This document shows positions 471 through 42,394 of a stretch of DNA of 64,000 nt, piece after piece. The position numbers were made by a program, and so were the translations under genes. The notes beneath the pieces are model-generated. The model saw only the letters and a program-made list of their open reading frames with translations. It was not told the origin of the DNA and made no database searches. This DNA is from Proteobacteria bacterium CG1_02_64_396 (GTDB lineage: Bacteria > Pseudomonadota > MNWR01 > CG1-02-64-396). Numbering within the stretch: the stretch's first letter is position 1; each line of letters starts with the position of its first letter. The stretch covers positions 1-64,000 of the forward strand of contig MNWR01000093.1 in the NCBI GenBank assembly GCA_001872725.1. The letters run 5' to 3'.

Positions 471-503
471 GCACGGATCTGGCCATCGTTCGAGCCTTGC
501 CCA

Positions 504-540
504 ACGCCCCCGGGGATTCTCCCCTGGGGGCGTCGTTTTT
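504..540 (+). terminator. Terminator or attenuator after precursor A1
   Basis: A GC-rich hairpin (arms about 504-516 and 520-533, with a TTC loop) is followed by GTCGTTTTT. It sits between the precursor gene and the next gene at 604. Such an element lets the precursor be made in excess over the modifying enzymes by partial termination. Confidence 0.75.
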
Positions 541-603
541 GGGGCTTTCCCCCATGATCGCGTGCCCCCCCGTTGCCGAACCCAGAAACCCGGAGCATGA
601 GCC

Positions 604-2217: not shown

Positions 2218-2221
2218 GCCG

Positions 2222-4252
2222 ATGGGTCCGATGGCAGCGCCGTCCATGTCGGTATTGTTGATTTCGCCGCCGCTCAATTCCCTGACGCATCCCCATGCGA
2301 GCCTTCCGGTGTTGACCGCCTTTTTGCGCGCCCGTGGCGTGCGGGTGGTGCAGCGCGATTTGGGGATCGAGGTGATGGAGGAGCTGTTCTCTGCGGCGGG
2401 GATCGCGGCGTTGGGGGGGCGAATTCGACGCAAGGCGGCTGCGGAGGATCCCGAAAGGGGGGGCAAGCGGCTGCGCGAAGCGCTTCTGATGGTCGATGTC
2501 GTGGCCGAGGGGATCGAGGCGGCCAAGGGGGTCATGCGCGACCGGGAGGCGTTTTACGATCCCGAACGCTACCTGCATGCCCACCGTCTGCTCGCCCGGG
2601 GGTTCGATCTGATCGAGGCGGCCCACCCCAACCTGCGTTTCAACGGCGATGCCCTGTCGATGCGCCACCCCGCCACCTTCGACAGCTGCGAGGCCTTCGC
2701 CGCCGATCCCGAGTCCCACCCTTTCCATGAAGCGATTCAGCGTCGACTTGCCGAACTCGTCGGCTCGGGCCCCTTCGACTGGATCGGCCTTTCGGTCACC
2801 TACACCGGGCAACTCCATTTCGCCTTTGCCCTGGCCCGCATGGCGCACGAGCTCTTCCCCGGGGTACCGGTCGTCATGGGGGGGGCGGCGATCAGTCTGG
2901 CCGAGGATACCCTGCGTCGCTTTGCGCAGCGGGCGTTTGCCCTGGCCGACGGTTTTGTTTTCGGCGAGGGGGAGGGGCCGCTGGGCAATCTGCTCAATCT
3001 GGTGTGCGATCCAGCGCAGGCGGGGGGGATTCACAAAAACCTGATGCTCTCCCCCGCCGTTCGCGCCCGGTTTGCGCTGCCCGACGACCTGGCGACGATC
3101 GCCCCCGTTACCGATCTCGACCAGTTGCCGACCCCCGACTACGGGGGGCTCGACTTGAGCCGCTACCTCACCCCCGAACCGATCTTCTTTTTGGGCAACA
3201 CCCGGACTTGCTACTACGGCCAATGCGCCTTTTGCTCCTGCGGCTACGGCCACAAGGGGCGCTACGCCATCCGTTCGATGGCGAAGATCGAGCAGGATCT
3301 GCGCACCCTCAAGGAGCGGTTCGGCGCCCGCTGCCTGTTCTTCACCGACGATTGTCTTCCCCCCAAGCGCGGCCGGGAGATTGCCGAGTTTTTACACGGC
3401 GCCGGTTTGGACTTTGTTTGGTCGGCGTGGCTGCGTTACGAAAAGAGTTTCGACGACGACACGGTCGCGGCGCTGGTGCGCAGCGGTTTGCGGCAGGTCT
3501 CGTTTGGCAACGAGTCGGGATCGGCGCAGATGCTGGAGACGATGCGCAAAGGGACCGATCCGCAACGGGGGGTCGAGACGATCCGGCGGATGGCGGCCCA
3601 CGGGGTCGGGATCGACCTGCAAAACTTCATCGGTTTTCCCGGCGAGACCCACGAGCAGGCGCAGGAGACGGTCCGTTTTCTCGTCGCGCTCAAGACGATG
3701 GTCACCACCTGCGCCTTCGGCGCCTACTACGTCGCCCACGGATCGCCGGTGGCGTTGGAGCCGACCGCCTTCGGGGTGTCGGATCTGCGCCTGATCGACC
3801 CCGAGCGGTTGATCCCCTCCTACCACTACACGGTTGACCGTGGCCCCGATCCCGCCGAGCTGCCCGATCTGTACAAGCGTTTTGCCGGTTTCATCCACCT
3901 GAACTTTCTGACCGGAACCTTCTTTTTGGAATTGGGGATCGGCGCCCACACCCTGCTCTATCACGAGCGGTACGGCTCCGCGTGGGTATGCAGCCGTTTG
4001 CCGCTATTGCTGCGGCGGCGCGGTCAATGGCAATCGGGCGACCGTTGGGGCGATGGGGTGCGTCGGGTGCTGCACCCGGACGGCAGTCTGTCGGCCTTCG
4101 ATTCCCACAGCGGCGTGTTGCTGCGGGTCGAGCAGGGGCAGGGATGTCTGGCGGTTCTGGAGGGTGGGGCCGATGTACCCGATGCCAAGGTGCGCAGCGA
4201 TTTGAATCTGCTCTTCAGGGAGGGGTTGGTCGGTCGGGAGCGGTCGTCTTGA
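2222..4252 (+). CDS. Cobalamin-binding radical SAM protein
   Basis: This protein of about 676 residues has a BchE-like layout. An N-terminal B12-binding-type Rossmann segment (SVLLISPPLN onward, with the GLSVTYTGQ and VMGGAAIS segments) is followed by a radical SAM domain. The cluster-binding cysteines are 330, 335 and 338 in CYYGQCAFC, a Cx4Cx2C spacing seen in some B12-radical SAM proteins rather than the usual Cx3Cx2C. Family members carry out methylations, cyclisations and other C-H chemistry. The gene starts 4 bases after the sulfotransferase fusion and follows precursor A1, so it is a candidate tailoring enzyme for that peptide. ATGs at 2231 and 2246 are possible alternative starts, because no clear ribosome binding site decides. 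The role in the pathway is inferred. Confidence 0.8.
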   Translation: MGPMAAPSMSVLLISPPLNSLTHPHASLPVLTAFLRARGVRVVQRDLGIEVMEELFSAAGIAALGGRIRRKAAAEDPERGGKRLREALLMVDVVAEGIEAAKGVMRDREAFYDPERYLHAHRLLARGFDLIEAAHPNLRFNGDALSMRHPATFDSCEAFAADPESHPFHEAIQRRLAELVGSGPFDWIGLSVTYTGQLHFAFALARMAHELFPGVPVVMGGAAISLAEDTLRRFAQRAFALADGFVFGEGEGPLGNLLNLVCDPAQAGGIHKNLMLSPAVRARFALPDDLATIAPVTDLDQLPTPDYGGLDLSRYLTPEPIFFLGNTRTCYYGQCAFCSCGYGHKGRYAIRSMAKIEQDLRTLKERFGARCLFFTDDCLPPKRGREIAEFLHGAGLDFVWSAWLRYEKSFDDDTVAALVRSGLRQVSFGNESGSAQMLETMRKGTDPQRGVETIRRMAAHGVGIDLQNFIGFPGETHEQAQETVRFLVALKTMVTTCAFGAYYVAHGSPVALEPTAFGVSDLRLIDPERLIPSYHYTVDRGPDPAELPDLYKRFAGFIHLNFLTGTFFLELGIGAHTLLYHERYGSAWVCSRLPLLLRRRGQWQSGDRWGDGVRRVLHPDGSLSAFDSHSGVLLRVEQGQGCLAVLEGGADVPDAKVRSDLNLLFREGLVGRERSS

Positions 4253-4293
4253 TCCGCCAGGGTTCCATCCTCGCCCGAGCCCGGCGGCCGTCT

Positions 4294-4842
4294 TCAGTCC
4301 CCCTCCCGTCTCCCCGGACCCCGGTTCATCAATGCGTCGATCAGGGGGAAGAGCTTGAGGCCGATCAGGTAGAGCTCGCCATGGCGTTGCCGTAGGGCCC
4401 GTTGTTGCTCGGCGTCGAGCCCTTGCGCGTGCAAATGTTTGCGCACGGCGGCGATCGGAAGCCCCGCCAGGTCGGGATCGAGGCTGCACAAACGGGCAAA
4501 ACGGCGTTGCAGCGCCACCGTCTGTTCCAACTGTGCCCGCGCCTGCTCCAGTGCGATGGCCCCCCGCTGAAGAAGTCGCAGCGGGGTACAAAAAAAGGCG
4601 CCGCAGATGTGGGGACGGGGCGCCGCGTGGATGGTGCATGCCCGGTCGAAATGACGACAAGGCAAGGCGAAGATTGTTTTTTCGCCCCTGCGCCCGATGG
4701 AAAACCCCAGCGAGCGCGCCAGCGCAAGATCCTCGTCGCCGTAGATCCTCCCCACGTCGAACAGGGTGCCGTCGCAACATAAACCGCAGTCGATGCACAG
4801 TTGCTCGATCTGCTCCCGCGACGCCCCGGTATGTTGGTCCAT
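4294..4842 (-). CDS. YkgJ-type CxxCxxCC cysteine-cluster protein
   Basis: The protein has 182 residues. It begins with CIDCGLCC at about 16-23 and later has CRHFDRACTIH and CGAFFC, the pattern of the YkgJ family (PF03692), whose members are thought to bind zinc or an iron-sulfur cluster. The C-terminal half is helical and lacks cysteines. Most family members have no assigned reaction. It is the last gene of a minus-strand run with the lasso B2 protease gene (4983-5456) and a 46-codon reading frame, and it converges on the radical SAM gene. A supporting role in the lasso pathway, such as metal delivery, is only inferred from position. Confidence 0.75.
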   Translation of the reverse strand: MDQHTGASREQIEQLCIDCGLCCDGTLFDVGRIYGDEDLALARSLGFSIGRRGEKTIFALPCRHFDRACTIHAAPRPHICGAFFCTPLRLLQRGAIALEQARAQLEQTVALQRRFARLCSLDPDLAGLPIAAVRKHLHAQGLDAEQQRALRQRHGELYLIGLKLFPLIDALMNRGPGRREGD

Positions 4843-4845
4843 CGT

Positions 4846-4986
4846 TTATCCCCTTTTGGGATCGAGCCGCGATGCGATCCTTGCCGCGACGATCCCGGAA
4901 TCGGGATCGATCAAGGCGGGGATGCCGTGCCCGTGGTGTTCTTGCTTGATCGCCACGAGCGCAACCGGACCGGGAAAATCGGTCAT
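4846..4986 (-). CDS. Small 46-residue protein of unknown function in the lasso cluster
   Basis: This short reading frame begins with an ATG overlapping the stop codon of the B2 gene (ATGA overlap) and ends 3 bases before the start of the YkgJ-type gene, so translational coupling is likely. The peptide starts MTDFPGPVALVAIKQ and contains HHGHG and IDPDSG. It has no signal peptide, membrane segment or YxxP leader motif, so it does not look like a third precursor. I do not recognise it. The tight packing is the main reason to think it is real. Confidence 0.45.
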   Translation of the reverse strand: MTDFPGPVALVAIKQEHHGHGIPALIDPDSGIVAARIASRLDPKRG

Positions 4987-5456
4987 TCATTCCCCCCGTA
5001 CTCGAATGCCCCCACCACCGCGAATCCCAAAAACGACCTCCCCCCGGTCACCGCCACCCGGTCGGTGGCGACCCAGGCATGGGCCTTGAGCCCCTTGGCT
5101 TCGTCTTTGGCGACCCCGAGGCAGAGTAGGTAGGGGATGCGGTGCACCCGCAGCGCCAGCGCCGCCACCATCGCCTGGGCCAGACACTTCGACTGCCAGG
5201 GGGTGATCGCGGCGGTCGCCTCGATCAGTCGTCCCAGGCGGTAGGCGCGGCTCATTTGCGCACGTGTCGCCAAGGGGATGGCGGGGCCGTCGGGATTCAT
5301 AACCCCCAGATGGGGGGCGATGCGGCGGAAGGGGGCGATGAGCAGCGCCAGCCGCGCCAGCCCCAGCAGCACGAAGACCGGCAGGAACCAGACCTTTTCG
5401 AGTTTGGAGCGGCGGGCAAGGGTGCGGGCCTTGCGTAGGATGAGGGCGGGGGTCAT
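4983..5456 (-). CDS. Lasso peptide B2 leader protease (transglutaminase-like)
   Basis: This 157-residue protein matches the stand-alone B2 family, the cysteine protease that cuts the leader from a lasso precursor (the C-terminal half of McjB-type proteins). The presumed catalytic residues are Cys91 (in SKCLAQA), His126 (in KAHAWV) and Asp132 (in ATDRV). A hydrophobic stretch lies at about 23-42. The start at 5456 is chosen because the open frame upstream runs through a tandem repeat array that cannot be part of this domain. It acts after the B1 protein (6004-6285) has bound the leader. An 84-bp repeat array separates the two genes. The 46-codon frame and YkgJ-type gene follow with overlap or near contact. 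Confidence 0.87.
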   Translation of the reverse strand: MTPALILRKARTLARRSKLEKVWFLPVFVLLGLARLALLIAPFRRIAPHLGVMNPDGPAIPLATRAQMSRAYRLGRLIEATAAITPWQSKCLAQAMVAALALRVHRIPYLLCLGVAKDEAKGLKAHAWVATDRVAVTGGRSFLGFAVVGAFEYGGNE

Positions 5457-5479
5457 GGGGTTTTCATTGAGGGAGGATG

Positions 5480-5963
5480 TTCGGCGACGGGGTCGGGTTT
5501 GGTGAGATCGCCGCTTTTGTAGGAGCGGACCCCGTCCGCGAACGGTTTGCCCGCCCTGCCCGGTTCGGCGACGGGGTCGCCCCCCACGACAGCGCCGCTT
5601 TTGTAGGAGCGGACCCCGTCCGCGAACGGTTTGCCCGCCCCGCCTGGTTCGGCGACGGGGTCGCCTCCTACAACATTGCCGTTTTTGTAGGAGCGGACCC
5701 TGTCCGCGAACGATTTGCCCGCCCCGCCTGGTTCGGCGACGGGGTCGCCTCCTACGACATCGCCGCTTTTGTAGGAGCGGACCCTGTCCGCGAACGGTTT
5801 GCCCGCCCCGCCTGGTTCGGCGACGGGGTCGCCCCCCACGACATCGCCGCCTTCGTAGGAGCGGACCCCGTCCGCGAACGGTTTGCCCGCCCCGCCTGGT
5901 TCGGCGACGGGGTCGCCCCCCACGACATCGTCGCCTTCGTAGGAGCGGACCCCGTCCGCGAAC
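5480..5963. repeat. Six-copy 84-bp tandem array of inverted REP palindromes (REPIN-like)
   Basis: GTAGGAG followed by the palindrome GCGGACCCCGTCCGC (or with CCT in the loop) begins at 5519, 5603, 5687, 5771, 5855 and 5939, exactly 84 bases apart. Between these lie inverted copies of a sister palindrome (GGCGACGGGGTCGCC then TCCTAC). Each unit is thus a pair of REP sequences in opposite orientation. Because 84 is a multiple of three, several frames stay open on both strands, but none looks like a protein. The array lies between the genes for B1 and B2. Single or paired copies recur at about 9.8-10.0, 51.95 and 57.29 kb. Confidence 0.9.
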
Positions 5964-6003
5964 AGACGGCGCGGCGTTTGTGAGGTCGTTGCGACGTTCC
6001 CCC

Positions 6004-6285
6004 TCAACACACCTGCACCACCTCGTGCTCCAGCATTTGCGCCACGAAGGCGAGCGTGTCGGCCTGGGCGGTTGCCTCATCGACCTCATAAACAGCGCAG
6101 AGCTTCTCGGCGATCTCGGCCACGGTTAGCGGCTTCTCCAACCAGCCCCAGATGTCCGATCCGGTGGCGTCGATGCCGTAATACTTCCCCTTGGCGATGC
6201 TCATCATGACGACCTCGCCGTCCATGTCGGTGGCGATCAGGTCGGGGTTGCGCTCGATGCGGGTGGTCAGGGCGATGTTGGCCAC
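6004..6285 (-). CDS. Lasso peptide B1 protein (PqqD-like leader-recognition protein)
   Basis: The protein has 93 residues with the compact PqqD fold pattern: N-terminal strands (IERNPDLIATDMDGEVVMMSI), then KGKYYGIDATGSDIWGWL and a helical C-terminal half. This is the RiPP recognition element that binds the YxxP part of lasso leaders and presents them to the B2 protease. Both precursors in this window carry YTPPxxVDL, so this one protein may serve both. It lies between the sulfotransferase (6404-7261) and the repeat array, on the same strand as B2. Confidence 0.9.
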   Translation of the reverse strand: MANIALTTRIERNPDLIATDMDGEVVMMSIAKGKYYGIDATGSDIWGWLEKPLTVAEIAEKLCAVYEVDEATAQADTLAFVAQMLEHEVVQVC

Positions 6286-6403
6286 GTCGGGTTCCTCGTT
6301 GAGATGTGGGTGGTCGGTGAAACGGTGTCAGGTGAAGGGTATTTCCACGGGGCGGTGTTGGGAATTGCACCCCTCGGGTTTTGCCCGGGGATGACGGGGC
6401 GGT

Positions 6404-7261
6404 TCACACCGGATTCCCCGCATCGTCCAAATAACCCAGCCGCCGCATCACTTCCCCGTGGTCGGTGACGATTTTGGCTACCTGCTCGGGGTTGAGCTTG
6501 TCGCGCCACCCCCCGGTTTTCCCTTCGCCGAAGAAGGCCCCCGCTTTGCGGGAGCGCTCCCGGAACCCCTTTTCCGCCTCCTGCGCCCGCAGATTTTCGA
6601 TGGCGGCGGCGTCGATGGCCCGGCTCACCCGCTCGGGATTGCTCGGCAGTCCCAGCAGGGTGGCGGCGCGGGTGAAGGTGGACAGGGGGGCGTTTTTCAT
6701 GTCCTCGAAGCGGATGACCTCCAGTCGGATCCCTTCGGCCTCGATCCAACTCAAAACGTGGTCCGACCAGGTTCCCATCGGCTGATGTACCTGGTTGCCG
6801 ATGCCATGGGTTCCCATGACCAGCCCGAAATCGGGGTTGCCCATCGCGGCGATGGTGTCGTCCAGATTCATCCCCATGTGGCGGGCAAACGAGGGGGCGA
6901 CATCGAGGGGGTTGCGCACGATGTAGAGCGCTGCGGTGGTCGCCTCGGCGGGGAAGAGCGCATCGCCATTCGCAAGGCGAACGTAGGCGTCGTGCACCTT
7001 GACGTAGCGGGGCTCAGGCTCCGCCCCGCTCCAGCGGTAAACCAGGGGGCGCAAATGCATGATCTCGTCGGGGGTCAGGTCGGCCGAATCGAATCCCAAC
7101 ACCTCGTCGATCCACCGCCGTCCACTGGCGATGCCATCGGTCTGCATGTTGTTGATGTCGATCTGCGCCTCCTCCTTCCCCCGCAGGGCGGTCAAAAAGG
7201 CGCGAAACCAGGTGTTGCCCGATTTAGGATAGGAGGCCAGCCAGTAGCTCGATCCACTCAT
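6404..7261 (-). CDS. Sulfotransferase, candidate lasso peptide tailoring enzyme
   Basis: This 285-residue, single-domain sulfotransferase carries the 5'-phosphosulfate loop SYPKSGNTWFRAFL near the N-terminus, a 3'-phosphate motif IVRNPLDVAPSFARH in the middle, and GKTGGWRDKL near the C-terminus. It would transfer sulfate from PAPS to a hydroxyl group. Its start overlaps the stop of the first HPr-kinase-like gene by 4 bases, so they form one operon with precursor A2 and B1. Together with the fused sulfotransferase at 604-2217 it gives the cluster two sulfotransferases. The substrate could be a Ser, Thr or Tyr of a lasso peptide, which is inference from context. Confidence 0.88.
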   Translation of the reverse strand: MSGSSYWLASYPKSGNTWFRAFLTALRGKEEAQIDINNMQTDGIASGRRWIDEVLGFDSADLTPDEIMHLRPLVYRWSGAEPEPRYVKVHDAYVRLANGDALFPAEATTAALYIVRNPLDVAPSFARHMGMNLDDTIAAMGNPDFGLVMGTHGIGNQVHQPMGTWSDHVLSWIEAEGIRLEVIRFEDMKNAPLSTFTRAATLLGLPSNPERVSRAIDAAAIENLRAQEAEKGFRERSRKAGAFFGEGKTGGWRDKLNPEQVAKIVTDHGEVMRRLGYLDDAGNPV

Positions 7262-8151
7262 GCTTCACCTGTGTGGACAAGGTCGAGCAAGCGGTCGGTC
7301 AGGGCGCCGACGTAATCGCCGCCGCCAGGGTAGGACAGAGCCCAAAGCCGGATGTGTCCCGATAGGGCGGCGATTTGGGCCATGTGCTGGGTTTTGAGGC
7401 CCATGTGGTCCATGAAGGAGATGCGGTAGGTGTTTTTGCGCAGCGGCATGAAGCGGTTCATCCCCCACAGCGGTTCGGCGACGATTTCTTCCAGTGTGGT
7501 GGCTGAAAGGAGCACGACCCAGCGCACCGGCGACGGTTGGGTTGTGACGGCATCGGCCAACGGGAGGTGGTAGCGCTCCAACCCCGGTCGGACGGGGGTC
7601 AGGTCGTCGCGGGGGATGTCGAGCATCTTCAGCGCGTTGCGCCACAGCTTGAGGCGGGGGATTCCCGGCAGCGCTCGGTGTTGCTCGTCCAGGGCGATCA
7701 CGTCGTCGGCCACGATGCGATGCCCCCGTTTCATCAGCTCGGCGGCCAGGGTCGATTTGCCGCTGCCCGAACTGCCCAAAATCAAGATCGCCTGCCCGTT
7801 GATTTCGACGGCGGCGCCGTGCATGACCAAGCGGTCGCGCTGGAAAAGCAGCGCCGCCAATGGGGAGGCGAGCAAGAAGTTGCGGATGCTGGCCTCGTCG
7901 CTGCCGGGTTCGGGATCGATGACGATGCGATTGCCGCCCCGCACCCAGAACCGGGCCACCTTGGGGATTGCCAGCCACAGGTTGTGGCGGTCGGCCCGGG
8001 TCAGGGGGCCGATGCGGGGAATCTCGGCGGGACCATCCTTGGGGATGGGTCCGATCTCGACGATGGCGTCGGGGAGGCCGTCCGAAAGGGGGAGCTCCGG
8101 CAGGGGGAGGTCGCTTTCCAGGGTCAGGCCGCAAAGGCGGTAACGGCTCAT
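7258..8151 (-). CDS. HPr-kinase-like protein 1 (lasso-cluster type)
   Basis: The protein has 297 residues. A P-loop GSSGSGKST at about residue 130 follows a VMHGAAVEINGQ segment, as in the HPr kinase catalytic core, and RIVADDV follows. The HPr kinase regulatory domain is absent. Relatives in lasso clusters, such as PadeK of paeninodin, phosphorylate the C-terminal serine of the precursor. Both precursors here end in Ser. The start at 8151 (MSRYRLCGLTLES) aligns with the paralogue's start (MSHRHLLYGLTLES). An in-frame ATG 24 bases upstream is possible. It overlaps the sulfotransferase gene by 4 bases and is separated from its paralogue by a 141-bp palindromic element. Confidence 0.85.
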   Translation of the reverse strand: MSRYRLCGLTLESDLPLPELPLSDGLPDAIVEIGPIPKDGPAEIPRIGPLTRADRHNLWLAIPKVARFWVRGGNRIVIDPEPGSDEASIRNFLLASPLAALLFQRDRLVMHGAAVEINGQAILILGSSGSGKSTLAAELMKRGHRIVADDVIALDEQHRALPGIPRLKLWRNALKMLDIPRDDLTPVRPGLERYHLPLADAVTTQPSPVRWVVLLSATTLEEIVAEPLWGMNRFMPLRKNTYRISFMDHMGLKTQHMAQIAALSGHIRLWALSYPGGGDYVGALTDRLLDLVHTGEA

Positions 8152-8191
8152 GGGGTGGGCCTCGTGGCGGTGCATTCCGTCCCCCCCGATG

Positions 8192-8332
8192 AGGCGTCAT
8201 TCCGGGGCCCCGGAGTCCCGAAGGGATGCAGGGGAACCCGGAATCCACCGCTTGGCATGGCGTTCCAGGGATGGGGCGTGGTTGGTTTCGGGTGGATTCC
8301 GGGTTCGGCTGCGGCGTCCCGGAATGACGCCT
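8192..8332. repeat. 141-bp nested palindromic element (MITE-like)
   Basis: The ends are perfect 15-base inverted repeats (AGGCGTCATTCCGGG at 8192-8206 and its complement at 8318-8332). Inside lies a second perfect 16-base pair (8234-8249 and 8291-8306, GAACCCGGAATCCACC and its complement). The whole could fold into a long hairpin. It has no coding capacity and fills the gap between the two kinase genes. Such elements are usually non-autonomous mobile repeats. Confidence 0.75.
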
Positions 8333-8374
8333 GGGTGGGGGCGGGCGGGGGAAAGGTAACAACCCGTGCCGCCA

Positions 8375-9298
8375 TCATCCGCCCGTCCCCTGCGCCGGGG
8401 CGTTCCGGGCGATGTCGTCCAAAATCAACCCGGCCAGCTTCTCGGCCGGGTAATCCCCCCCGGCGGGGCGGAGGATGCGGCACAGCCGGATGCGACCGGC
8501 GAGCAGGCCGATTTGCGCCAATTGTGCCTCGTGACGCCCCATGGCGGAGCCGAAGCGGCGGCGGTAAAGGTTGCGCGACAACGGCAAAAAGCGGTTGCGC
8601 CCCTCGATCGCTTCGAAACGCAGATCGTGGCCGTCATGGGGGATCAGGATGTAAACCCAGCGCACCGGCATGGGGGCGAGCGGCTGGGCGTGGGCCAGGG
8701 GGAGGTGGTACTTCTCGAAGTCCCTGCCGATGCGTTGCAAACCCGAGGTGTCGATGGCCAGATCGTCGGCCGCCTCCTGCCACAACTTGATGCGGGGGAT
8801 GCCGGGGATGGCATTGCCGTCGGCGCAGACCGGCACCACGTCGTCGGCCAGCACCGGGTGGCCCCGTTTCATGAAGGCGGCGGCCAGGGTCGATTTGCCT
8901 GCCCCCGAGCGGCCCAAACACAGCAACGCCTGCCCATCGAGCGCCACCGCATTGCCGTGCAGCACCAAAAAACCCCGCTGCAACAGGATCGCCCCCAACA
9001 TCGAGCCGAGCAGGAAGAGGCGCAGCGTGTCTTCGTCGGCCCCCGGTTCGGCATCGATCACGACCCGATTCCCCCCCTGGGCGAGGAAGCTGCCGACCTG
9101 GGGAACGCGCAGCCAAACGGCGTCGGCGGCGATCTTGAGGTTGGGGGTCAAACGGCTCGATTCGGGCAGCAGCGCTTCGGACGCCTGGCCCCGGACGATG
9201 CACACGTCGGCCGCCCCGTCGGCGGCGATTTCAGGCGCTTCGGGCAGGGGGATGACGCTTTCGAGGGTCAGTCCGTAGAGGAGGTGGCGGTGGGACAT
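8375..9298 (-). CDS. HPr-kinase-like protein 2 (lasso-cluster type)
   Basis: This 307-residue paralogue of the protein at 7258-8151 shares the N-terminal GLTLES start, the QGGNRVVIDAEPG segment, VLHGNAVALDGQ, the P-loop LGRSGAGKSTLAAAFMKRGH and VLADDVVPV. The two clearly come from a duplication but have diverged. It lies directly downstream of precursor A2 on the minus strand, behind that gene's terminator-like hairpin. It is a candidate for phosphorylating the C-terminal Ser of one or both precursors. Two kinases and two precursors suggest one kinase per peptide or successive additions, but this is inference. Confidence 0.85.
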   Translation of the reverse strand: MSHRHLLYGLTLESVIPLPEAPEIAADGAADVCIVRGQASEALLPESSRLTPNLKIAADAVWLRVPQVGSFLAQGGNRVVIDAEPGADEDTLRLFLLGSMLGAILLQRGFLVLHGNAVALDGQALLCLGRSGAGKSTLAAAFMKRGHPVLADDVVPVCADGNAIPGIPRIKLWQEAADDLAIDTSGLQRIGRDFEKYHLPLAHAQPLAPMPVRWVYILIPHDGHDLRFEAIEGRNRFLPLSRNLYRRRFGSAMGRHEAQLAQIGLLAGRIRLCRILRPAGGDYPAEKLAGLILDDIARNAPAQGTGG

Positions 9299-9398
9299 GG
9301 GACTCGGGGGATCGATGAAGTGTGAAAAAGTCCCGGCAGATTAAGGGGTGAACGGCGATTGGCAAGTAAAGGGTCGACATGACGGCGGGGCGACCCAA

Positions 9399-9437
9399 AA
9401 CAACGCCCCGCGCCGGGATGCCGGGGCGGGGCGTTGT
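9399..9437 (-). terminator. Terminator or attenuator after precursor A2
   Basis: Read on the minus strand, a long GC-rich stem (CAACGCCCCG...CGGGGCGTTG) is followed by TTTT. It lies 24 bases after the A2 stop codon and before the kinase gene, mirroring the hairpin that follows precursor A1. Confidence 0.75.
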
Positions 9438-9460
9438 CAAAAGGCCGAGGTTCGCAGGGG

Positions 9461-9604
9461 TTAAGAGGGGCCTACGGCGGTGCCGCTCTCGATGGGGGCG
9501 ACGGTTGTTTTCGCCTCGGTCTCTTCCAGCGCCTCCAGGTCGACGATGCTGGGGGGGGTGTAGGCAAGACGTTGGGCGGTTTCGGGGGTTGGGGCGGTGT
9601 GCAT
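9461..9604 (-). CDS. Lasso peptide precursor A2 (predicted core AKTTVAPIESGTAVGPS)
   Basis: This 47-residue peptide has a predicted 30-residue leader with YTPPSIVDL at 15-23, the same motif as precursor A1 (YTPPACVDL). The leader ends ...EETE, with Thr at the penultimate position. The 17-residue core would begin with Ala31 and place Glu at core position 9, the Ala1/acidic-9 spacing seen in paeninodin, and it ends in Ser. AGGAG lies 10 bases before the ATG at 9604. Downstream on the same strand are a hairpin terminator, two HPr-kinase-like genes, a sulfotransferase, B1 and B2. The shared leader motif, ring spacing and context together make this a strong call, though no product is proven. Confidence 0.82.
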   Translation of the reverse strand: MHTAPTPETAQRLAYTPPSIVDLEALEETEAKTTVAPIESGTAVGPS

Positions 9605-10092
9605 AGGTGGGACGCTCCTGAAGGGGGGTGACGATGGGGCGGGTGCCCCACGGGGTGGGTGTTTCGCAGGCTTTTACCCCCCCCGTCCCGTGAAGTCAAG
9701 GCAGGAATTCGGCCCAATGGGGTCGGTGGAGGGAGACGTCGTGTCGCGGCGGTTCTTCCCCCCAAGACCGGTTGGCCCACCGATGGATTCGGTCCGCCCC
9801 ACGTAGGAGGCGACCCCATCGCCGAACCAAGCAGGGCGGGCCACCCATTCGCAGGCAGCGCAGCAACCTCACAAACGCCGCGCCGTCTGTTCGCGGACTT
9901 CGGTCCGCTCCTACAAAAGCGGCGATCTCACCGAACCCGATGCCGCCGCCGAATCCGATGTCGTAGGAGGCGACCCTGTCGCCGAACCCTTGCTGTTTCA
10001 AAACCCAGCGGCCGCCTTGCCGCGATTGGGATCCCCGCCGCGCCGTGTATCATCCCTCCCCCTTGTCGCGCCCTTCCCGGAGTCGCCCACCC
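9605..10092. repeat. Intergenic region with three REP palindromes between divergent precursor A2 and cyclase genes
   Basis: REP copies lie at 9803-9827 (+), 9889-9914 (inverted) and 9963-9987 (+). Each has GTAGGAG next to a GGCGAC/GTCGCC- or GCGGAC/GTCCGC-type palindrome. The first two form an inverted pair like those in the 5.5-6.0 kb array. Promoters for both divergent genes should lie here, but none was recognised. No gene is seen in the 488 bases. Confidence 0.75.
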
Positions 10093-11976
10093 ATGTTTGC
10101 CGCCATTCTGACCCTCGACGACAGTGCCGCCCCCGAGCAGTGGGGCGACCCCGAGCGCTTGCTGGCCGCCCTGGCACCTTTGACCCCCCCTGAGCGAACC
10201 GGCATTCATCGCGGCGAGCGGCTGCTGGCGGTTCAGCTGCGCCATCGCGGCCACGGCGACCCCGACGAGCCGCTCCCCCTGGTGTGCCCCCGCAGCGGCA
10301 GGGTCATCCTCTTCTGGGGGCGGCTCGACAACCGGGGTGAGTTGCGGGCGCAGTTGGGGATGGAGGAGGGGGGCGACGCCGCGCTGGTACTGGCGGGGTA
10401 CGAGCGCTGGGGGCGGTCGCTGCCCGAGCATCTGGTTGGCGATTTCGCCTTCATGGCGGTCGATCCCCGCGAAGGGAGCGCCCTGCTTGTTCGCGATCCC
10501 CTGGGGATCAAGCCGCTCTATTACCTGAACACCGGTAAAGCGCTGATCGTCGCCTCTTCGGCGGCGGTCTTCCCCACCTTGGGGCGCGACCGCCCCGAAC
10601 CCGACCCCGACTGGATGGCCCGTTTTCTGGCTTGCACTTCAAAAAGTCACACCACCACCGGTTTTTCCGGGGTGCTCAAGCTCCCCGGCAGCCATCTGCT
10701 TGGCGTCGCCAACGGGGCGACGAGCGAGCCCAGGCGCTACTTCGAATTCCGTAACGATCCCCCCTTCGCCCTGCGCCATGACGAACGTTGGGTCGAGGCC
10801 TACCGGGAGCGGCTAGAAGAGGCGATCACCTGCCGTCTCGATCCCGACCACCCCATTGGGACCGAACACAGCGGCGGCCTCGATTCCTCCAGCATCGCCG
10901 CCTACCTGGCTCATCTGCTCGGCAATCCCGGCGACCGGCTGCACGCCTTCGGCTACGCCTTCAGCGAGGAGGAGCCCGACTGCATCCTGGGGACCAGCCT
11001 CTATGCCGGCATCCGGCACAACCATGTGATCACCAACCGGATGTTCGAAGACAAAAACGAACGGATCGACGAGGCGCTGCGGGTGCTGGGCTACCCCGAG
11101 GAGCACGGCAACGGCTCGGGCCACATCTTGTTTTACCGGGAATGCCAACTGCGGGGGATCCCGACCCTGCATTCGGGCTTCGGGGGGGACGAGGTGGTGA
11201 CCCAATCGGGCCATCACCTGCGCCACGAAATGCTCGACCGAGGCCATTACGGCCCCCTGTTCGGCATCCTGCCGGGCAATCCGATCACCCGGAGTTTGCG
11301 CTGGGGCAAGGCGGTGGCGACCCGGCTGCCCAATTCCGACCATTTTGGCCCCATTCTGGCGGTGCAAGAGCGGGCTCAGGCGGGGTGGTTTTTGCGGGGC
11401 GAAATGGTGGAGCGGCTCGATCTGGTGGCCGACCATCTCCAGCGGGCCCGATATGCCGCCCCCTACCGGCGCATCAACGAGTTTGCCCTGGGACGTCTCG
11501 GCGAGGCGTTTGTCCCCACCCGCCTAGAAAACTGCACGTCGATGGCGGCCGCCTACGGGGTCGATTACCGCTGGCCCCTGCTCGATGTGCGCTTGATTCA
11601 GCAATACCTCGACACCCCCGCCATCGAAAAGGCCGATCGCCGCATGGGGCGATTGCTGCATCGCCGCGCCGTCGCCCCGGTGCTGGGCCCCAAGGTGGCA
11701 TGGAAGCCCGAAAAATCGATGGGCAATCTGGTGGGCGAGGTTCAGGGGAACCTCGCCAAGGTCGTGGCCCAAGTCCGCGTGGCCGAGGCGCGGTTGCACC
11801 CCGCCTTGGAGCCCTTGATCGACCGGACCCTGCTGCGGGCGCGGATCGAGGCGGCCGAGGCGCTGGGGGACAGCCGAGTGTTGGAGCAGGTTCATGCGCA
11901 GCTCAGAACGTTGCTCCCCCTGGTTTGGCTCGACCGCTGGCTGCACGAAGGGGCGGCGACGGGGGGGCAGGGGTGA
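10093..11976 (+). CDS. Lasso cyclase C (asparagine-synthetase-like lasso peptide synthetase)
   Basis: This 627-residue protein has asparagine synthetase B architecture. An N-terminal glutamine-amidotransferase-like domain (about 1-190) lacks the catalytic Cys2, since it starts MFAAIL. A C-terminal ATP-pyrophosphatase domain carries the SGGLDSSS loop at about 258-265. Lasso cyclases use this domain to adenylate the side chain of Glu/Asp at core position 7-9, and the N-terminal amine then attacks to close the ring. Here that residue would be Glu8 of A1 or Glu9 of A2. The start at 10093 has GGAG 10 bases upstream. It is first in a plus-strand operon with the ATP-grasp, ABC exporter and nucleotidyltransferase-like genes, which overlap by 4, 17 and 4 bases. 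Confidence 0.9.
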   Translation: MFAAILTLDDSAAPEQWGDPERLLAALAPLTPPERTGIHRGERLLAVQLRHRGHGDPDEPLPLVCPRSGRVILFWGRLDNRGELRAQLGMEEGGDAALVLAGYERWGRSLPEHLVGDFAFMAVDPREGSALLVRDPLGIKPLYYLNTGKALIVASSAAVFPTLGRDRPEPDPDWMARFLACTSKSHTTTGFSGVLKLPGSHLLGVANGATSEPRRYFEFRNDPPFALRHDERWVEAYRERLEEAITCRLDPDHPIGTEHSGGLDSSSIAAYLAHLLGNPGDRLHAFGYAFSEEEPDCILGTSLYAGIRHNHVITNRMFEDKNERIDEALRVLGYPEEHGNGSGHILFYRECQLRGIPTLHSGFGGDEVVTQSGHHLRHEMLDRGHYGPLFGILPGNPITRSLRWGKAVATRLPNSDHFGPILAVQERAQAGWFLRGEMVERLDLVADHLQRARYAAPYRRINEFALGRLGEAFVPTRLENCTSMAAAYGVDYRWPLLDVRLIQQYLDTPAIEKADRRMGRLLHRRAVAPVLGPKVAWKPEKSMGNLVGEVQGNLAKVVAQVRVAEARLHPALEPLIDRTLLRARIEAAEALGDSRVLEQVHAQLRTLLPLVWLDRWLHEGAATGGQG

Positions 11977-13214
11977 GCCTCTCCCGCTGGTGGCGCTTGC
12001 TGCTGCGCGAGGTGATTCGGCGCCCGTTTCCCCATGGGGTGCTCCATCCGCGCTTTTTGCTGCCGGGGCAGTCCCGGCAGGTGGGTATCCACCGCACGTT
12101 GTGGCGGATGGGGCGGCCCCGCTCCATTCCCGTGCTGGTGTGGTGGCCGTTGGAATTGTTGCTTTGGCTGCGTTGGGCCCTTTGGAGCGGCTGGGGCCCC
12201 TTGTGGCGGACGGTGCGGCGGTTGGGCCCTGTGGTGGCCGAGGCGGAGGGGATCCCGGTTTGGCGGCAGGGGTTGAGACTGGCCCGAATCAGCCTGCTGG
12301 GGGGGATCCCGGCGGCGGCGCTGTACCCCTTTTGCCTCTATCGCGCAGACGGTGCCCGGCGAATGTGGGATTACCTCTACGACACCGAGACGGTCCCCTT
12401 CCATCGCTGGGAGAGCGCCCCTTTGGGGCTCTCCCGCGCTTCGCTGGACCTGGTGCAGGACAAGGCGGCCTTGAGCGAGGCGGCCCGGGCGCTGGGGGTC
12501 GCCACGGCGGGGAATTTGGGGGTGTTGCCGAAAGGAGGAACGCCCGATTTGCCCCCCTACCTCGACCATCCCGGCGGCATCTTCGTCAAGCTGCGCAGCG
12601 GCAATCGGGCCGAGGATGCCTTCGCCTTGGCGCGCCAGGGTGGGCGGCTTTCGATCCGCTGCCTGCACGGCAAAACCCTTGAGGAACAAGCATTGCCGGA
12701 TCACCTACGCGCTATGGCGGCCAAGGACGATCTGCTGGTGCAGCCGCTGCTGACCACCCACCCCGATCTGCAAACGGCGTGCGCCATCGACGACGTTGCC
12801 ACCCTGCGTTTGATCACCCGGCGGGTCGGCGAAGAGGTAGTGTCGGCGTGGGCCATGGTGGAGCTGGCGGTTGAGCGCTCCGAGGAGGGGCATCCCCTTT
12901 ATGTCATTCTTGCGCTGGCGGAGGATGGGCGGATCAAGCGTTTTCCCGAGGCTGTCCCCCTGCCTGCCGAGGCGCGTGCGCGCATCGCCAAGGTGGAGGC
13001 GCTTCTATCGGGGCAAATCCTGCCGGGATGGACGGCGATGCGGCAGGGGAGTCTTCTGCTGCACCAACGGCTGCTGCCCGACCTGGCGACCATCGCTTGG
13101 GATTGGGCGCTGACCCCGCAAGGGGGGCGTTTGTTGGAGGGCAATTTCGGTTGGGGGATGCAGCTCCCGCAAACCATACACGGGGGGCTGTTGAGGGATG
13201 GACGCGATGGGTGA
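11973..13214 (+). CDS. ATP-grasp protein of the sugar-transfer-associated type
   Basis: The protein has 413 residues, starting at a GTG that overlaps the cyclase stop (GTGA). The N-terminal third is rich in hydrophobic and basic residues (WWPLELLLWLRWALWSGWG), suggesting membrane contact. The rest fits an ATP-grasp fold: GIFVKLRSGNRAEDAF for the nucleotide-binding lysine strand, DDLLVQPLL, and GRLLEGNFGWGMQLPQ near the end for metal-binding residues. It resembles the ATPgrasp_ST family (PF14397). ATP-grasp enzymes join carboxylates to amines or thiols. In this operon it could add a group to the lasso peptide, but the substrate cannot be read from the sequence. Confidence 0.7.
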   Translation: MSLSRWWRLLLREVIRRPFPHGVLHPRFLLPGQSRQVGIHRTLWRMGRPRSIPVLVWWPLELLLWLRWALWSGWGPLWRTVRRLGPVVAEAEGIPVWRQGLRLARISLLGGIPAAALYPFCLYRADGARRMWDYLYDTETVPFHRWESAPLGLSRASLDLVQDKAALSEAARALGVATAGNLGVLPKGGTPDLPPYLDHPGGIFVKLRSGNRAEDAFALARQGGRLSIRCLHGKTLEEQALPDHLRAMAAKDDLLVQPLLTTHPDLQTACAIDDVATLRLITRRVGEEVVSAWAMVELAVERSEEGHPLYVILALAEDGRIKRFPEAVPLPAEARARIAKVEALLSGQILPGWTAMRQGSLLLHQRLLPDLATIAWDWALTPQGGRLLEGNFGWGMQLPQTIHGGLLRDGRDG

Positions 13215-14955
13215 TCTGAACGTGCAGGGGCAATCGGCCACACCGGCGGAACTACGCCGTTTTTTAAAGGTGCTTTGGCATTTCGACCGACGCGCCGTCG
13301 CCTTTTTGCTGACCACCAACATTTTGGCGGCGCTGACCGCCGGGGCGGGGTTCGTCCTGCTGTTGCCGTTGCTGTCGCTGGCCGGGGTGATGGGGGCGGG
13401 CGGGGACGGCTGGAGTGCCACCTTCGAAGCGATGCTGGGAACGGTGGGGCTGCACCTGAATCTGGCCACCGCTTTGATCCTCTTCGTGGTGCTGGTGGGG
13501 CTGCAAACCTGGTTGACCTTGCTGCGTGATCGGCAATCCCAGGCGCTGCAACTGCGCTTTGGCGACCATCTGCGCCTGACCCTTTACCACGCCATGGCGG
13601 CCGCCCGCTGGCGCTGGCTGACCCGACGCCACAGCGCCGACCTGCTCGGGGTGCTGACCAACGACATTCAGCGGGTCGGATCGGGAACCTTCCATCTGCT
13701 GCAATTGCTCACCACCGCGCTGCTGACCACCGTCTACCTTGGCGTGGCGTTGCTGATTTCGCCCTTCGTTACCGCACTGGCGCTGGTTACCGGCGCCCTG
13801 CTCTGGTTGGTGCTGCGCCGTGGCGACACGGTGGCCAAACACAGCGGCGCCCTGCTCAGTCAGGCGACTCGGGGGATGTTCACCCTGGCCCAAGAATTCT
13901 TGGCGGCGATGAAACTGACCAAGATCCACGGCGAGGAGGGGGAAAACGTCGCCCTGTTCGAGGGGATCACCTCTCGGCTGCGGGGGCATCAACTGCGCTT
14001 CAACCACGTCCGCACCCGGGTGATGGCGACCTACAAAATCGGCGGGGCGCTGGTGCTGGCGGGGTTGACCTGGGTGGCGCTGGATGTACTGCACCTGCCC
14101 ACCGCCAGCCTCTTGGTACTCATCGCCCTGTTCGCCAAGCTGCTCCCCTCGCTGTCGCAGGTGCAAACCGGAATCCAGCAGCTTTGGCACATGTTGCCCG
14201 CCTTCACCACCTGGCGGCTGTTGGTGGCCGAGGGGGAGGAACACGCCGATCCGACCCGTCATGTGCCGGGGGGGGAGGCGCCCGCGCTGCTGCGCGCCAT
14301 CGCCCTTGAGGCGGTTGCCTACCGCCACCCCACCTCCGATTTTGTGGTCAATGCCGCCGAGCTGCACATTCCGGCCCGCGCCACCACCGCCATCGTTGGC
14401 CCCTCGGGCAGCGGCAAGACGACCCTGCTCGATCTGATCTGCGGGTTGATCCCCCCCGATCATGGGGCGCTGCGACTCGACGATCTGCCGCTGGAACAGG
14501 CGCTCACCCAGGGCTGGCGGAGCAAGATCGCCTACGTCCCGCAAGAGACCACCATCCTCGACGGGACGGCGCGGGAGAACCTGCTCTGGGGCAACCGGGC
14601 CAGCGAAGAAGAGATCGCCGACGCCCTGCGCCACGCCGCCGCCGAGTTTTTGCTCGCCCTGCCCCAGGGACTCGACACCCAGGTCGGGGAGCGAGGGGTG
14701 CGGTTGTCGGGGGGTGAAAAACAGCGGCTCGCCCTGGCCCGCGCCCTGCTGCGCCGCCCGGAGCTGCTGATCTTGGACGAGGCGACCAGTGCGCTCGACC
14801 GCGACAACGAACGGGCGATTTTAGAGGCGGTGCGGGGGCTGCACGGGCAGATGACGATTCTGATCGTCACCCACCGTCACGAGTGGCTCGACGGCTTGAT
14901 CGACGGTCGGGCCGAGGTGGCGGCGGGGGTGGTCGGGGGATGGAGTCCGGCATGA
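13198..14955 (+). CDS. ABC exporter (permease fused to ATPase), lasso peptide export/immunity
   Basis: The protein has 585 residues with an N-terminal six-helix ABC exporter membrane domain (about 20-330) and a C-terminal ATPase. The ATPase has Walker A GPSGSGKTT, signature LSGGEKQRLALARALL, Walker B LLILDEATSALD and the switch histidine in VTHRH. There is no N-terminal C39 peptidase, as expected for lasso exporters such as McjD, because the leader is removed by B2. It overlaps the ATP-grasp gene by 17 bases and the next gene by 4. An ATG at 13207 is an alternative start. It likely exports the mature peptide(s) and gives self-protection. Confidence 0.88.
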   Translation: MDAMGDLNVQGQSATPAELRRFLKVLWHFDRRAVAFLLTTNILAALTAGAGFVLLLPLLSLAGVMGAGGDGWSATFEAMLGTVGLHLNLATALILFVVLVGLQTWLTLLRDRQSQALQLRFGDHLRLTLYHAMAAARWRWLTRRHSADLLGVLTNDIQRVGSGTFHLLQLLTTALLTTVYLGVALLISPFVTALALVTGALLWLVLRRGDTVAKHSGALLSQATRGMFTLAQEFLAAMKLTKIHGEEGENVALFEGITSRLRGHQLRFNHVRTRVMATYKIGGALVLAGLTWVALDVLHLPTASLLVLIALFAKLLPSLSQVQTGIQQLWHMLPAFTTWRLLVAEGEEHADPTRHVPGGEAPALLRAIALEAVAYRHPTSDFVVNAAELHIPARATTAIVGPSGSGKTTLLDLICGLIPPDHGALRLDDLPLEQALTQGWRSKIAYVPQETTILDGTARENLLWGNRASEEEIADALRHAAAEFLLALPQGLDTQVGERGVRLSGGEKQRLALARALLRRPELLILDEATSALDRDNERAILEAVRGLHGQMTILIVTHRHEWLDGLIDGRAEVAAGVVGGWSPA

Positions 14956-16220
14956 GCACATCCGAAACCTTCATCATGACCGACCGGGTGCGGTCGCTGG
15001 TCTACGGGGCGTTGGCCCCCTCTCCGCCGGACGACTTGGCGCAGCGGGTCGCCGCCTTGAATCCCGAGGAGTGGCAGGCGGTGCTGCATTTGGTCCGGCA
15101 ACATCGGGTGGGGCCGATGCTGTTTTGGGGGTTGAGCCGGGGCGGACTGCTGGAGCGGGTGCCACACGAGGTGGCGGCAACCTTGCAACAGCAGCAGCGC
15201 CGTTGGGGTATGCGCAATCTAAAAACCCACGCCGAATTGGTGCGGGTGTGCCGGTTGCTTGAAGAGGCGGGGATCGAAACCATCGCCCTCAAGGGGGCCT
15301 ATCTGGCGACCTTCGCCTACCCCTCGCTGGGGCTGCGCCCACTGCGCGACATCGACCTGCTGGTTCATCCCGACGACGGAATGAAGGCATTCGAAATCTT
15401 GCAAGGCCAGGGTTATGTCCCCGAGGAGCACGGCGATGCCCAGGCCTATGTCACCCAGATCAAACATCTGCCCCGGCTTGACCATCCCCATGGGGTGTCG
15501 GTCGAGTTGCACCTACGCCTGACCTCGCCGCGCGGAGACTTCGCCGACCGCCCCTGGATCGTCGATGACGAGGCCACCCTGTGGGGGCGGAGCGTCGTTC
15601 GGACGGTCGGGGGGAGCGATCTCCGTTTTTTGGAGCCGGTTGATCTGCTTCTACATTTGGCGCTGCACGCCACGGTCGATCACCGCCTGAGCATCGGCCC
15701 CCTCGGGATGGTCGATTTTGCTTGGCTGGCCCACACCCATGATCTCGATTGGGAGCGGGTCATGGCCCGCGCCTGCACCTGCGGTTTAGAAAAACAGACG
15801 CTGTCGGTTTTGGGGCTGGCGGCCCGTCGTTTCGGTACGCCGCTTCCCGCGTTGGTGTTGGGGCGTCTTGATGGCAACGAAGCCTGGCTGGAGAGCGCCG
15901 ATCATCTGATTTATGCCGACGCCGAGCATTTGTTCGTCATGAAGCGGGCGGTGATGGGGTTGGCGCAAGGGTCGTTGGGCGACCGGTTGCGGCAACTGGC
16001 GGCTTTGTTGTTCCCCGAACGAGATGCGTTGGCTGCCGAGTGTCGTGTTCGGCCCGGTCCCTGGCTGGCGCTGAATTACCCTTCGTACTGGATCAAACGG
16101 TTGCGCAAACTCTTTTCTCGCTCCGGCGCTTCGGTTCTAAGGCATCGCCACAGCCTTAAAACCGTGGCCGATCATCAAAGTGCTTTTGATGACTGGTTGG
16201 CGAGGGGGCCCAAACCGTAA
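14952..16220 (+). CDS. Nucleotidyltransferase-like protein (NTP_transf_5 type)
   Basis: This 422-residue protein starts at an ATG overlapping the exporter stop (ATGA). It carries the segment IALKGAYLATFAYPSLGLRP followed by LRDIDLLVHPDD, the metal-binding Asp-x-Asp pattern of the uncharacterised nucleotidyltransferase family PF14907. That family occurs often in clusters with PqqD-like proteins, lasso enzymes and HPr-kinase-like proteins. Relatives may add nucleotides to a kinase product or a peptide terminus, but no reaction is established. It ends the plus-strand lasso operon; hemC begins 124 bases on. Confidence 0.75.
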   Translation: MSTSETFIMTDRVRSLVYGALAPSPPDDLAQRVAALNPEEWQAVLHLVRQHRVGPMLFWGLSRGGLLERVPHEVAATLQQQQRRWGMRNLKTHAELVRVCRLLEEAGIETIALKGAYLATFAYPSLGLRPLRDIDLLVHPDDGMKAFEILQGQGYVPEEHGDAQAYVTQIKHLPRLDHPHGVSVELHLRLTSPRGDFADRPWIVDDEATLWGRSVVRTVGGSDLRFLEPVDLLLHLALHATVDHRLSIGPLGMVDFAWLAHTHDLDWERVMARACTCGLEKQTLSVLGLAARRFGTPLPALVLGRLDGNEAWLESADHLIYADAEHLFVMKRAVMGLAQGSLGDRLRQLAALLFPERDALAAECRVRPGPWLALNYPSYWIKRLRKLFSRSGASVLRHRHSLKTVADHQSAFDDWLARGPKP

Positions 16221-16344
16221 ATCGTCGGGGATGCCAGATGGAGCGGTTTTGCCCATAATGCGACGATCAAATTCATGTCAGTCCCCGTTGTGTGGGCTCC
16301 GCGAACCCCGCCGACACAAGTTTTATCGACCCGACGAAGACCCC

Positions 16345-17337
16345 ATGACCGCCAAAATCTCCCTCGACGCCGTCCGTTCCGAATTACCCAAACTCCTCAA
16401 ACCCCGTGGCCCCCTCGACAAGGTGGTCATCGCCACCCGTGGCTCCAAGCTGGCGCTGTGGCAGAGCAACTGGGTCAAACGGTTGCTTGAGGCGGCCCAC
16501 CCCGAGATCACGGTGGAGCTGCTGATTATGAAAACCCAGGGCGACATCATCCTCGATGTGCCGCTGGCTCAGGTGGGGGGTAAGGGGCTCTTTGTGAAGG
16601 AGCTTGAAGAGGCGCTGCTCGACGGGCGGGCCGATCTGGCGGTGCACTCGATGAAGGATGTCCCCACGGTGCTCCCCGAGGGGTTGGGGATCACGGTAAT
16701 GCTGCCGCGCGAAGATCCCCGCGATGCTTTTCTCTCGGTGAAGTACGACAGCTTCGCGGCGCTGCCCCAGGGGGCCAAGGTGGGGACCTCCTCCCTGCGG
16801 CGCAAGGCGCAATTGCTGGCGGTGCGGCCCGATCTGCACATCTTCGACCTGCGCGGCAACGTCGATACCCGCATCCGCAAGCTCGAAGAGGGGCAATACG
16901 ACGCCATCATCCTGGCCCACGCCGGGGTGCGCCGCCTGGGGGTGACCCAGCACGTCAAGGGGGTGCTCGATCCCGAGGTGATGCTCCCCGCCGTGGCGCA
17001 GGGGGTGGTGGGGATCGAAACGCGGTTGAATGACGAAAAGTTGCTGGCCGGGATCGACTTCCTCCACGACGAGGCGGCGACCGTGGCCGCCACCGCCGAG
17101 CGGGCGCTGCTGCGCCGTCTGGAGGGGGGGTGTCAGGTCCCCATCGCCGCCCACGCCACCCTCGAAGGGGGGGGGCTGGTGCTCGAAGGGCTGGTCGCCG
17201 GTCTAGATGGCAAACAGATTCTGCGCAAGGGTAAGGCGGGTCTGCCCGAGGATGCCCAATGGCTGGGGACCACCCTGGCCGAGGATTTGATTGCCGCCGG
17301 GGCCGACAAGCTGCTGGCCGAGCTGGAGGGGCGTTAA
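16345..17337 (+). CDS. hemC: Hydroxymethylbilane synthase (porphobilinogen deaminase)
   Basis: This 330-residue enzyme joins four porphobilinogen units into hydroxymethylbilane in tetrapyrrole synthesis. Visible family segments are ATRGSKLALWQ, TQGDIILD, GKGLFVKELEEALL, AVHSMKDVPT, GTSSLRRKAQL, DLRGNVDTR and the dipyrromethane cofactor cysteine in GGCQVPI. The start at 16345 (MTAKISLD) gives the usual length with a short N-terminal extension. It heads a haem block with hemD 5 bases downstream. Confidence 0.96.
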   Translation: MTAKISLDAVRSELPKLLKPRGPLDKVVIATRGSKLALWQSNWVKRLLEAAHPEITVELLIMKTQGDIILDVPLAQVGGKGLFVKELEEALLDGRADLAVHSMKDVPTVLPEGLGITVMLPREDPRDAFLSVKYDSFAALPQGAKVGTSSLRRKAQLLAVRPDLHIFDLRGNVDTRIRKLEEGQYDAIILAHAGVRRLGVTQHVKGVLDPEVMLPAVAQGVVGIETRLNDEKLLAGIDFLHDEAATVAATAERALLRRLEGGCQVPIAAHATLEGGGLVLEGLVAGLDGKQILRKGKAGLPEDAQWLGTTLAEDLIAAGADKLLAELEGR

Positions 17338-17342
17338 GCCCG

Positions 17343-18107
17343 ATGACCCCCCTCGTGCTCTTGACCCGTCCTCGCGCCCAATCGGAGGCGATGCTGGGGG
17401 CAGTAAAGGCGCGGGGCTGGGAGGCGCTGGTCTGGCCCCTCAAGGCGATTGAGCCGCCGAGTAACCCGGCCCCCGCCGAAGCTGCGCTGCGTGATCTTCA
17501 ACCGGGGGACACCCTGTTTTTTGGCAGTGCCAACGCGGCTGAGGGCTGGGTGGGCAAGGCCAAGAGGTTGGGGATCGCCCCCTTTTCGAAGGGGGTCGAG
17601 GTGTGGTGTGTTGGTGGGGCGACCGCGCGGGCGTTGGCCGCCCATGGTTGCCAGCCAACGTTGATTCCCGAGCAGGCCAACTCCGAAGGGGTGTGGGATC
17701 AAGCGCTGCGGGAGGGGCGGCTCGATCCGCCACGCCGGATGATTCTCCCCCGCGGCGAGCATGGCCGGGAGTGGTTGGGGGAGCAGTTGACGGCGCGAGG
17801 GTGGCAGGTGCTGCCGGTGGCAGTCTATCGGGTGGTCGATGTGCGACCCGATATGGGGGCGCTGGAGCGGGTGCTGAGTCCCGGACGACCCGTGGCGGCG
17901 CTGTTGTTTCAGGCCTCGGCGGTCGCCCCTGCCGTGGAGGCCCTATCGGCTGTGGCCGTCCCGGTGTGCTGGGGCGCCCTCTCCGAACCGGTCGCTCGGG
18001 CATTGCGTGAACGGGGCATCGAGCCGTTCCAGGGTGCCGACCACCGCGCCGACGCCTTGCTCGATGCCCTGATGCAGTGCCAAGGTTTTGGGCCGTCGCC
18101 CCATTGA
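17343..18107 (+). CDS. hemD: Uroporphyrinogen-III synthase
   Basis: This 254-residue protein is consistent with HemD, which cyclises hydroxymethylbilane with inversion of ring D. The family is poorly conserved. Supporting segments are [10 protein letters not shown] at the N-terminus, [34 protein letters not shown] and PVAVYRVV. It begins 5 bases after hemC and is followed by hemB, as expected for a haem operon. Confidence 0.9.
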
Positions 18108-18138
18108 GTTGTTTGCGATTTCATCTGCTGGAGCCCTC

Positions 18139-42307: not shown

Positions 42308-42394
42308 TCGGTTTCGATGCCGCCCCTTCAGCCCACACGGGGGCAGCTTTTTATAACGTGGGTTTTTCCTTTATAGAAAATTGAGGTTTATGAG

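Follow-up and report, generated by a model that had tools for sequence, protein, structure and literature searches.

Lasso peptide precursor genes are short and easily missed in annotation. The locus at positions 9461–9604 of the window (the 64,000 nt stretch of contig MNWR01000093.1 that was analysed) raises the question of whether a 47-residue frame, A2, is a genuine precursor gene, and whether this frame or precursor A1 near the start of the window belongs to the enzyme genes that lie between and beyond the two. The evidence below makes it very likely that A2 is a genuine lasso peptide precursor gene; it is probably also the principal one of its cluster, and A1 and A2 probably share one leader-binding protein (B1), one leader peptidase (B2) and one cyclase (C).

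The A2 frame and its flanking sequences

A2 is encoded on the minus strand (positions 9461–9604), from an ATG start to a TAA stop, and consists of leader MHTAPTPETAQRLAYTPPSIVDLEALEETE and core AKTTVAPIESGTAVGPS. The leader has the motif YTPPSI at positions -16 to -11, a YxxPxL-like motif of the type bound by B1, and ends in Thr at -2 and Glu at -1. The core begins with a small residue, Ala1, has an acidic residue, Glu9, and ends in Ser17; the only other Ser in the core is at position 10. An Ala1-Glu9 ring is predicted from these residues. The 17-mer minus water has a calculated [M+H]+ of 1567.833, or 1647.799 with one phosphate. GC fractions by codon position are 0.65/0.56/0.77, values that carry little codon-usage signal over 47 codons.

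A Shine-Dalgarno sequence, AGGAGC (positions 9614–9619, minus strand, with AGGAG at 9619–9615), is 9 nt 5' of the ATG and is identical in A3, an unlinked copy described below. Direct reading of the sequence further upstream reveals a promoter-like pair, TTGACT-N17-TAAAAG (positions 9671–9699, minus strand), with 66 nt between the end of its -10 box and the ATG. It is conserved in the DNA alignment of A2 and A3, the A3 counterpart at the same place being CTGACA-N17-TAGAAG. The pair is absent from the list of a consensus promoter scanner because the scanner accepts only -10 boxes whose sixth base is T. Between the A2 stop codon and the next gene there is a strong hairpin (positions 9399–9438, minus strand; z of -4.29 relative to shuffled sequences), with -45.3 kcal/mol over an 86-nt stretch, which is a possible terminator or attenuator. 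A search with Rfam found no RNA element in positions 1–20000 of the window.

Organization of the gene cluster

A2 is followed on the minus strand by the hairpin and then by genes for two HprK-like kinases, K2 (positions 8375–9298) and K1 (7258–8175), a sulfotransferase (PF00685; 6404–7261), the PqqD-like leader-binding protein B1 (6004–6285; NF033536 above cut-off) and the leader peptidase B2 (4983–5456; NF033537 above cut-off, with the ATG at about 5456 read from the sequence). A CxxCxxCC (YkgJ-like) protein, a match below the curated cut-off, is encoded downstream of B2 (4294–4842, minus strand) and is also present in the cluster of locus L037. Divergent from A2, on the plus strand, are the lasso cyclase C of the asparagine-synthase family (10093–11976), an ATP-grasp protein (PF14397; 11973–13214), an ABC exporter, D (13198–14955), and a nucleotidyltransferase-like protein (14946–16220), the last being a family-level match to PF14907 only. 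The match of C to NF033535 (E 6e-60) is below the curated cut-off; C groups with cyclases that have B1 and B2 alongside, and the three are linked here as well.

A2 is the first gene of the enzyme operon and, by position, the operon's own precursor. The preliminary description had called it the second of two precursors. Two precursors are indeed present, but their ranking changes: A2 looks like the precursor that belongs to the enzyme operon, and A1, 9 kb away, looks like the outlier.

The two kinases are 47% identical and both retain the His-Lys-Asp-Asp set (H114, K135, D152 and D153 in K2; H119, K140, D157 and D158 in K1). They are probably sisters, i.e., lineage-specific duplicates (support 89/79), related clusters having one kinase. 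Specialisation of one kinase for each precursor was considered, and no link of K1 or K2 to either precursor emerged. Among 20 related loci, a kinase is present in 14, an ATP-grasp gene in 14, and a sulfotransferase in 12, in all 12 together with a kinase beside it; these counts are lower bounds because many of the comparison loci are incomplete at their ends.

An 84-bp tandem array (5.4 copies) lies between B1 and B2 at window positions 5507–5963. It is built around a palindrome-type repeat, GGCGACCCCGTCGCC, which has 89 matches in the genome, and copies of this type of repeat are also present between A2 and C (positions 9804–9988).

Profile search and comparison of cores

C alone as a query found no related loci in the contigs of other genomes; these were gathered with an alignment to which C homologues from genomes G184 and G067 were added. 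A hidden Markov model was then built from 17 precursors, anchored at the core start, that lie beside related cyclases in other genomes, with the present genome excluded. When 1636 frames from the window and locus L024 were scored, A2 ranked first (E 1.7e-4, 18.1 bits), A1 second (E 0.0055) and the next-best frame followed at 0.023. The first rank of A2 in a model made from the precursors of other genomes places it beyond chance. The third match (window positions 49440–49541) was rejected as a precursor: it has no Asp or Glu and therefore could not form a lasso core. All 17 related precursors end in Ser, as do A1, A2 and A3, but this is partly a result of selection, since a terminal Ser was a condition of the search that yielded three of the 17 (L025, L030 and L080); no such condition applied to the remaining 14.

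The A2 core aligns with the core GKTAEHPIESFFTGPS of an Azospirillum cluster (L027), with matches at K2, T3, P7, I8, E9, S10 and the final GPS. None of 4000 shuffled sequences, in which residue 1, the acidic residue and the last residue were held fixed, reached this score; when the comparison is with the best of all 17 cores, 39 of 4000 such shuffles reached the A2 score. The L027 leader is in the same register as that of A2 (Y-16, P-13, L-8, T-2 and E-1). An independent parallel is found in L033, where the core AKPIVSASEGTTTPTLTTIGPS, preceded by E, combines Ala1, Lys2 and Glu9 with a GPS end, and Ala is at -2. The Thr at -2 and the Ala1/Glu9 spacing that had been proposed for A2 are present in the sequence; the spacing has this parallel in L033, and a similar core occurs in L027. 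Searches of 60 relatives and some 400 genomes from the phylum yielded no A2 orthologue, the nearest kinship being at the phylum level.

Neither an aromatic residue nor any other bulky one that could lock a thread is present in the A2 tail, SGTAVGPS. This speaks for maturation of A2 to a branched-cyclic, unthreaded peptide or to a linear modified one, and several related cores have similar tails (SSSTTSPS in L025, SGVTTGLS in L034 and SSPTTGLS in L040). Yet all of these cores adjoin a lasso-type C, and a phosphate, sulfate or sugar at the C-terminus could take the part of the stopper. An unthreaded product is an unlikely alternative to a threaded lasso. Given that A2 shares with L025, L034 and L040 a tail devoid of bulky residues, a group on the last Ser might be the stopper of the threaded form favoured here.

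An unlinked precursor copy, A3

A search of the genome revealed a third precursor copy, A3, which is unlinked to the cluster (L002:1389–1650, about 42109–42370 of G000:C57). DNA identity between A3 and A2 is 82–84% from approximately 110 bases upstream of the ATG through the leader residues VDLE. The similarity ends before the core, which in A3 would be GGKIPGFTEWTAGNGWQYNAS. The two align without gaps, such that Ser/Thr-2, Glu-1, Gly/Ala1 and Glu9 coincide (A3 is Gly1/Glu9), and A3 ends in Ser, followed by a terminator-like hairpin with a T run. Here a cassette of promoter and leader has been duplicated at an unlinked position, where a different core follows it.

A functional role for A3 as a further precursor was rejected as unlikely. 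A one-base deletion just after the ATG produces a frameshift, with no nearby start codon in the leader frame, Tyr-16 is changed to Asp, and no lasso enzymes were found near A3. Codon differences from A2 are one synonymous and eight nonsynonymous. The frameshift and the change at Tyr-16 indicate that A3 has probably lost its function or is losing it. The missing base could stem from an error in the assembly, although the gap is outside any homopolymer. A3 is separated from a complete gene of acetyl-CoA synthetase type (L024:10616–12685) by a short frame on the same strand (L024:9466–9837), whose matches to AMP-binding enzymes are confined to their C-terminal domain. This frame looks like a partial duplicate and may have been left by an inserted element.

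That A2 is itself a decaying duplicate, with a frame open by accident and no product, is suggested by the state of this paralogue of the same genome, frameshifted and lacking Tyr-16, and by the lack of plug residues in the A2 tail. A2, however, has kept the start codon, the Shine-Dalgarno sequence, YxxP, Thr-2, Glu9 and Ser17; it is the first gene of an operon whose kinases, B1 and B2 all appear intact, and its core resembles those of the complete clusters L027 and L033. Decay of A2 is considered improbable. The decayed state of its sole paralogue, the plugless tail and a YxxP motif at -16 instead of -17 are nevertheless the points that stand against A2 as a functional precursor. A chance open reading frame, which the many long frames of GC-rich DNA and the weak codon-usage signal would allow, is very unlikely on the profile rank and E-value from unrelated genomes already, and the core similarity and the duplicated leader with a shared control region in A3 reduce it to a negligible alternative.

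A1 and the probable sharing of one enzyme set

A1 (positions 288–470, plus strand) encodes 60 aa with the core GKIYSTKEATGYFGIVGVS, for which a Gly1-Glu8 ring is predicted; the A1 product has a calculated [M+H]+ of 1959.022. Its leader reads YTPPACVDL where that of A2 reads YTPPSIVDL, so that the reported YTPPxxVDL is common to both exactly. The cores had been described as unrelated; their sequences do differ, but they follow a common plan of Lys2, an acidic residue at position 8 or 9 and a C-terminal Ser. A likeness of the A1 core to that of Shewanella locus L043a (GKAYSPVEMSINSGTGS) is good by eye but not significant (reached by 429 of 4000 shuffles).

A1 adjoins a gene for a protein with a C-terminal sulfotransferase domain (604–2217, plus strand) and is near one for a B12-binding radical SAM protein (2201–4252, plus strand). 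From their position these proteins may be linked to lasso maturation, and extra tailoring of A1 by the products of positions 604–4252 is possible. About 290 N-terminal residues of the 604–2217 protein precede the sulfotransferase domain and have no assignment.

B1 (NF033536 above cut-off) and B2 (NF033537) are each present in one copy in the genome, which is 98.5% complete, and C as a query at E 1e-60 finds a single copy, the cluster's own. Two other strong asparagine-synthase domains of the genome are on contigs without B1 or B2. Because B1, B2 and the lasso C are each single, A1 and A2 must share them if both are matured, and the two precursors probably do share this single set, though A1, 9 kb from A2, could have a different fate. 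This agrees with the earlier proposal of one enzyme set for two precursors; the formation of two lassos, with A1 entering the same enzymes, is what we infer from it. Sharing has a precedent in caulosegnins I-III of Caulobacter segnis, where three precursors with different cores and 8- and 9-residue rings use one enzyme set (PMC13352647). The arrangement differs in that a distance of 9 kb, occupied by a kinase-type cluster, separates A1 from A2. Related loci also have 2–4 precursors with different cores: two each in L028 and L043, and four in L029. The four in L029 (positions 7919–8818, Anaerolineales) are in tandem and have near-identical leaders and four different cores.

Proposed maturation and comparison with known systems

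The ribosome would produce the 47-residue A2 precursor, and B1 would bind its leader around Y-16xxP-13xI-11. One or both of the HprK-like kinases would phosphorylate the linear precursor, most likely at Ser17, and the sulfotransferase and nucleotidyltransferase may modify the product further. B2 would cleave after Glu-1 (residue 30), using Thr-2, and C would close the Ala1-Glu9 lactam around the tail. The ABC protein would then export the product. A1, with its Gly1-Glu8 ring, would enter the same B1/B2/C set, such that two products with 8- and 9-residue rings and exact masses are predicted.

Paeninodin has a 9-residue ring between Ala1 and Asp9. The plan proposed for A2 on this model, with a C-terminal Ser, agrees with Ser17 and with the HprK-like kinases of the same cluster; A2 differs in having Glu9 in place of Asp9 and an unrelated core. 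In the paeninodin system the kinase acts on the precursor, at the C-terminal Ser (PMC9266682). The kinase family has a His-Lys-Asp-Asp motif, and the C-terminal Ser is extremely conserved in kinase clusters (PMC9266682). The clusters of paeninodin (Paenibacillus dendritiformis), ThcoK and SyanK have a split B1/B2, a kinase with this motif and a C-terminal core Ser, as here (PMC9266682), but the A2 cluster has two kinases, two precursors and, in addition, sulfotransferase and ATP-grasp genes. The pseudomycoidin cluster of Bacillus pseudomycoides combines a kinase, which acts on the C-terminal Ser, with a nucleotidyltransferase, PsmN, which adds a hexose (PMC9266682); the A2 cluster has the same combination, its nucleotidyltransferase being a family-level PF14907 match only.

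The bsf cluster of Bradymonas sediminis is a Gram-negative example with a kinase, a nucleotidyltransferase and a split B (PMC10368454). Its leader has Ile-2 and BsfK modifies core Ser3 (PMC10368454), whereas Thr occupies -2 in A2, whose core contains no Ser other than those at positions 10 and 17. Because BsfK acts on Ser3, Ser17 is given for A2 as the most likely site. The leader YxxP motif has been quoted at -17 to -12 (PMC10368454), one residue off the -16 of A2. The cluster of Azospirillum sp. SYSU D00513 (L027) is the closest in core and leader register and also has B1, B2, C, a kinase, a sulfotransferase and an ATP-grasp protein. It differs from the A2 cluster in that its core starts with Gly1 in place of Ala1 and carries Phe-Phe in the tail, and in that it has a single kinase and yielded a single precursor.

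A2 is an added example of a known lasso system and not a new kind of system. The related loci point to a widespread tailoring set of kinase, sulfotransferase and ATP-grasp protein, whose action on Ser-ending lasso precursors is largely uncharacterised. As a speculation with low odds of being correct in full, A2 and its relatives may form a subfamily with this set over several phyla, where tails often lack bulky plugs, the stopper is a phosphate, sulfate or phospho-sugar that enzymes attach to the C-terminal Ser, and new precursors arise when promoter and leader are copied, even to unlinked positions as with A3, and the core diverges. A sulfotransferase gene has been noted as putative in lasso clusters of Firmicutes (PMC8498205).
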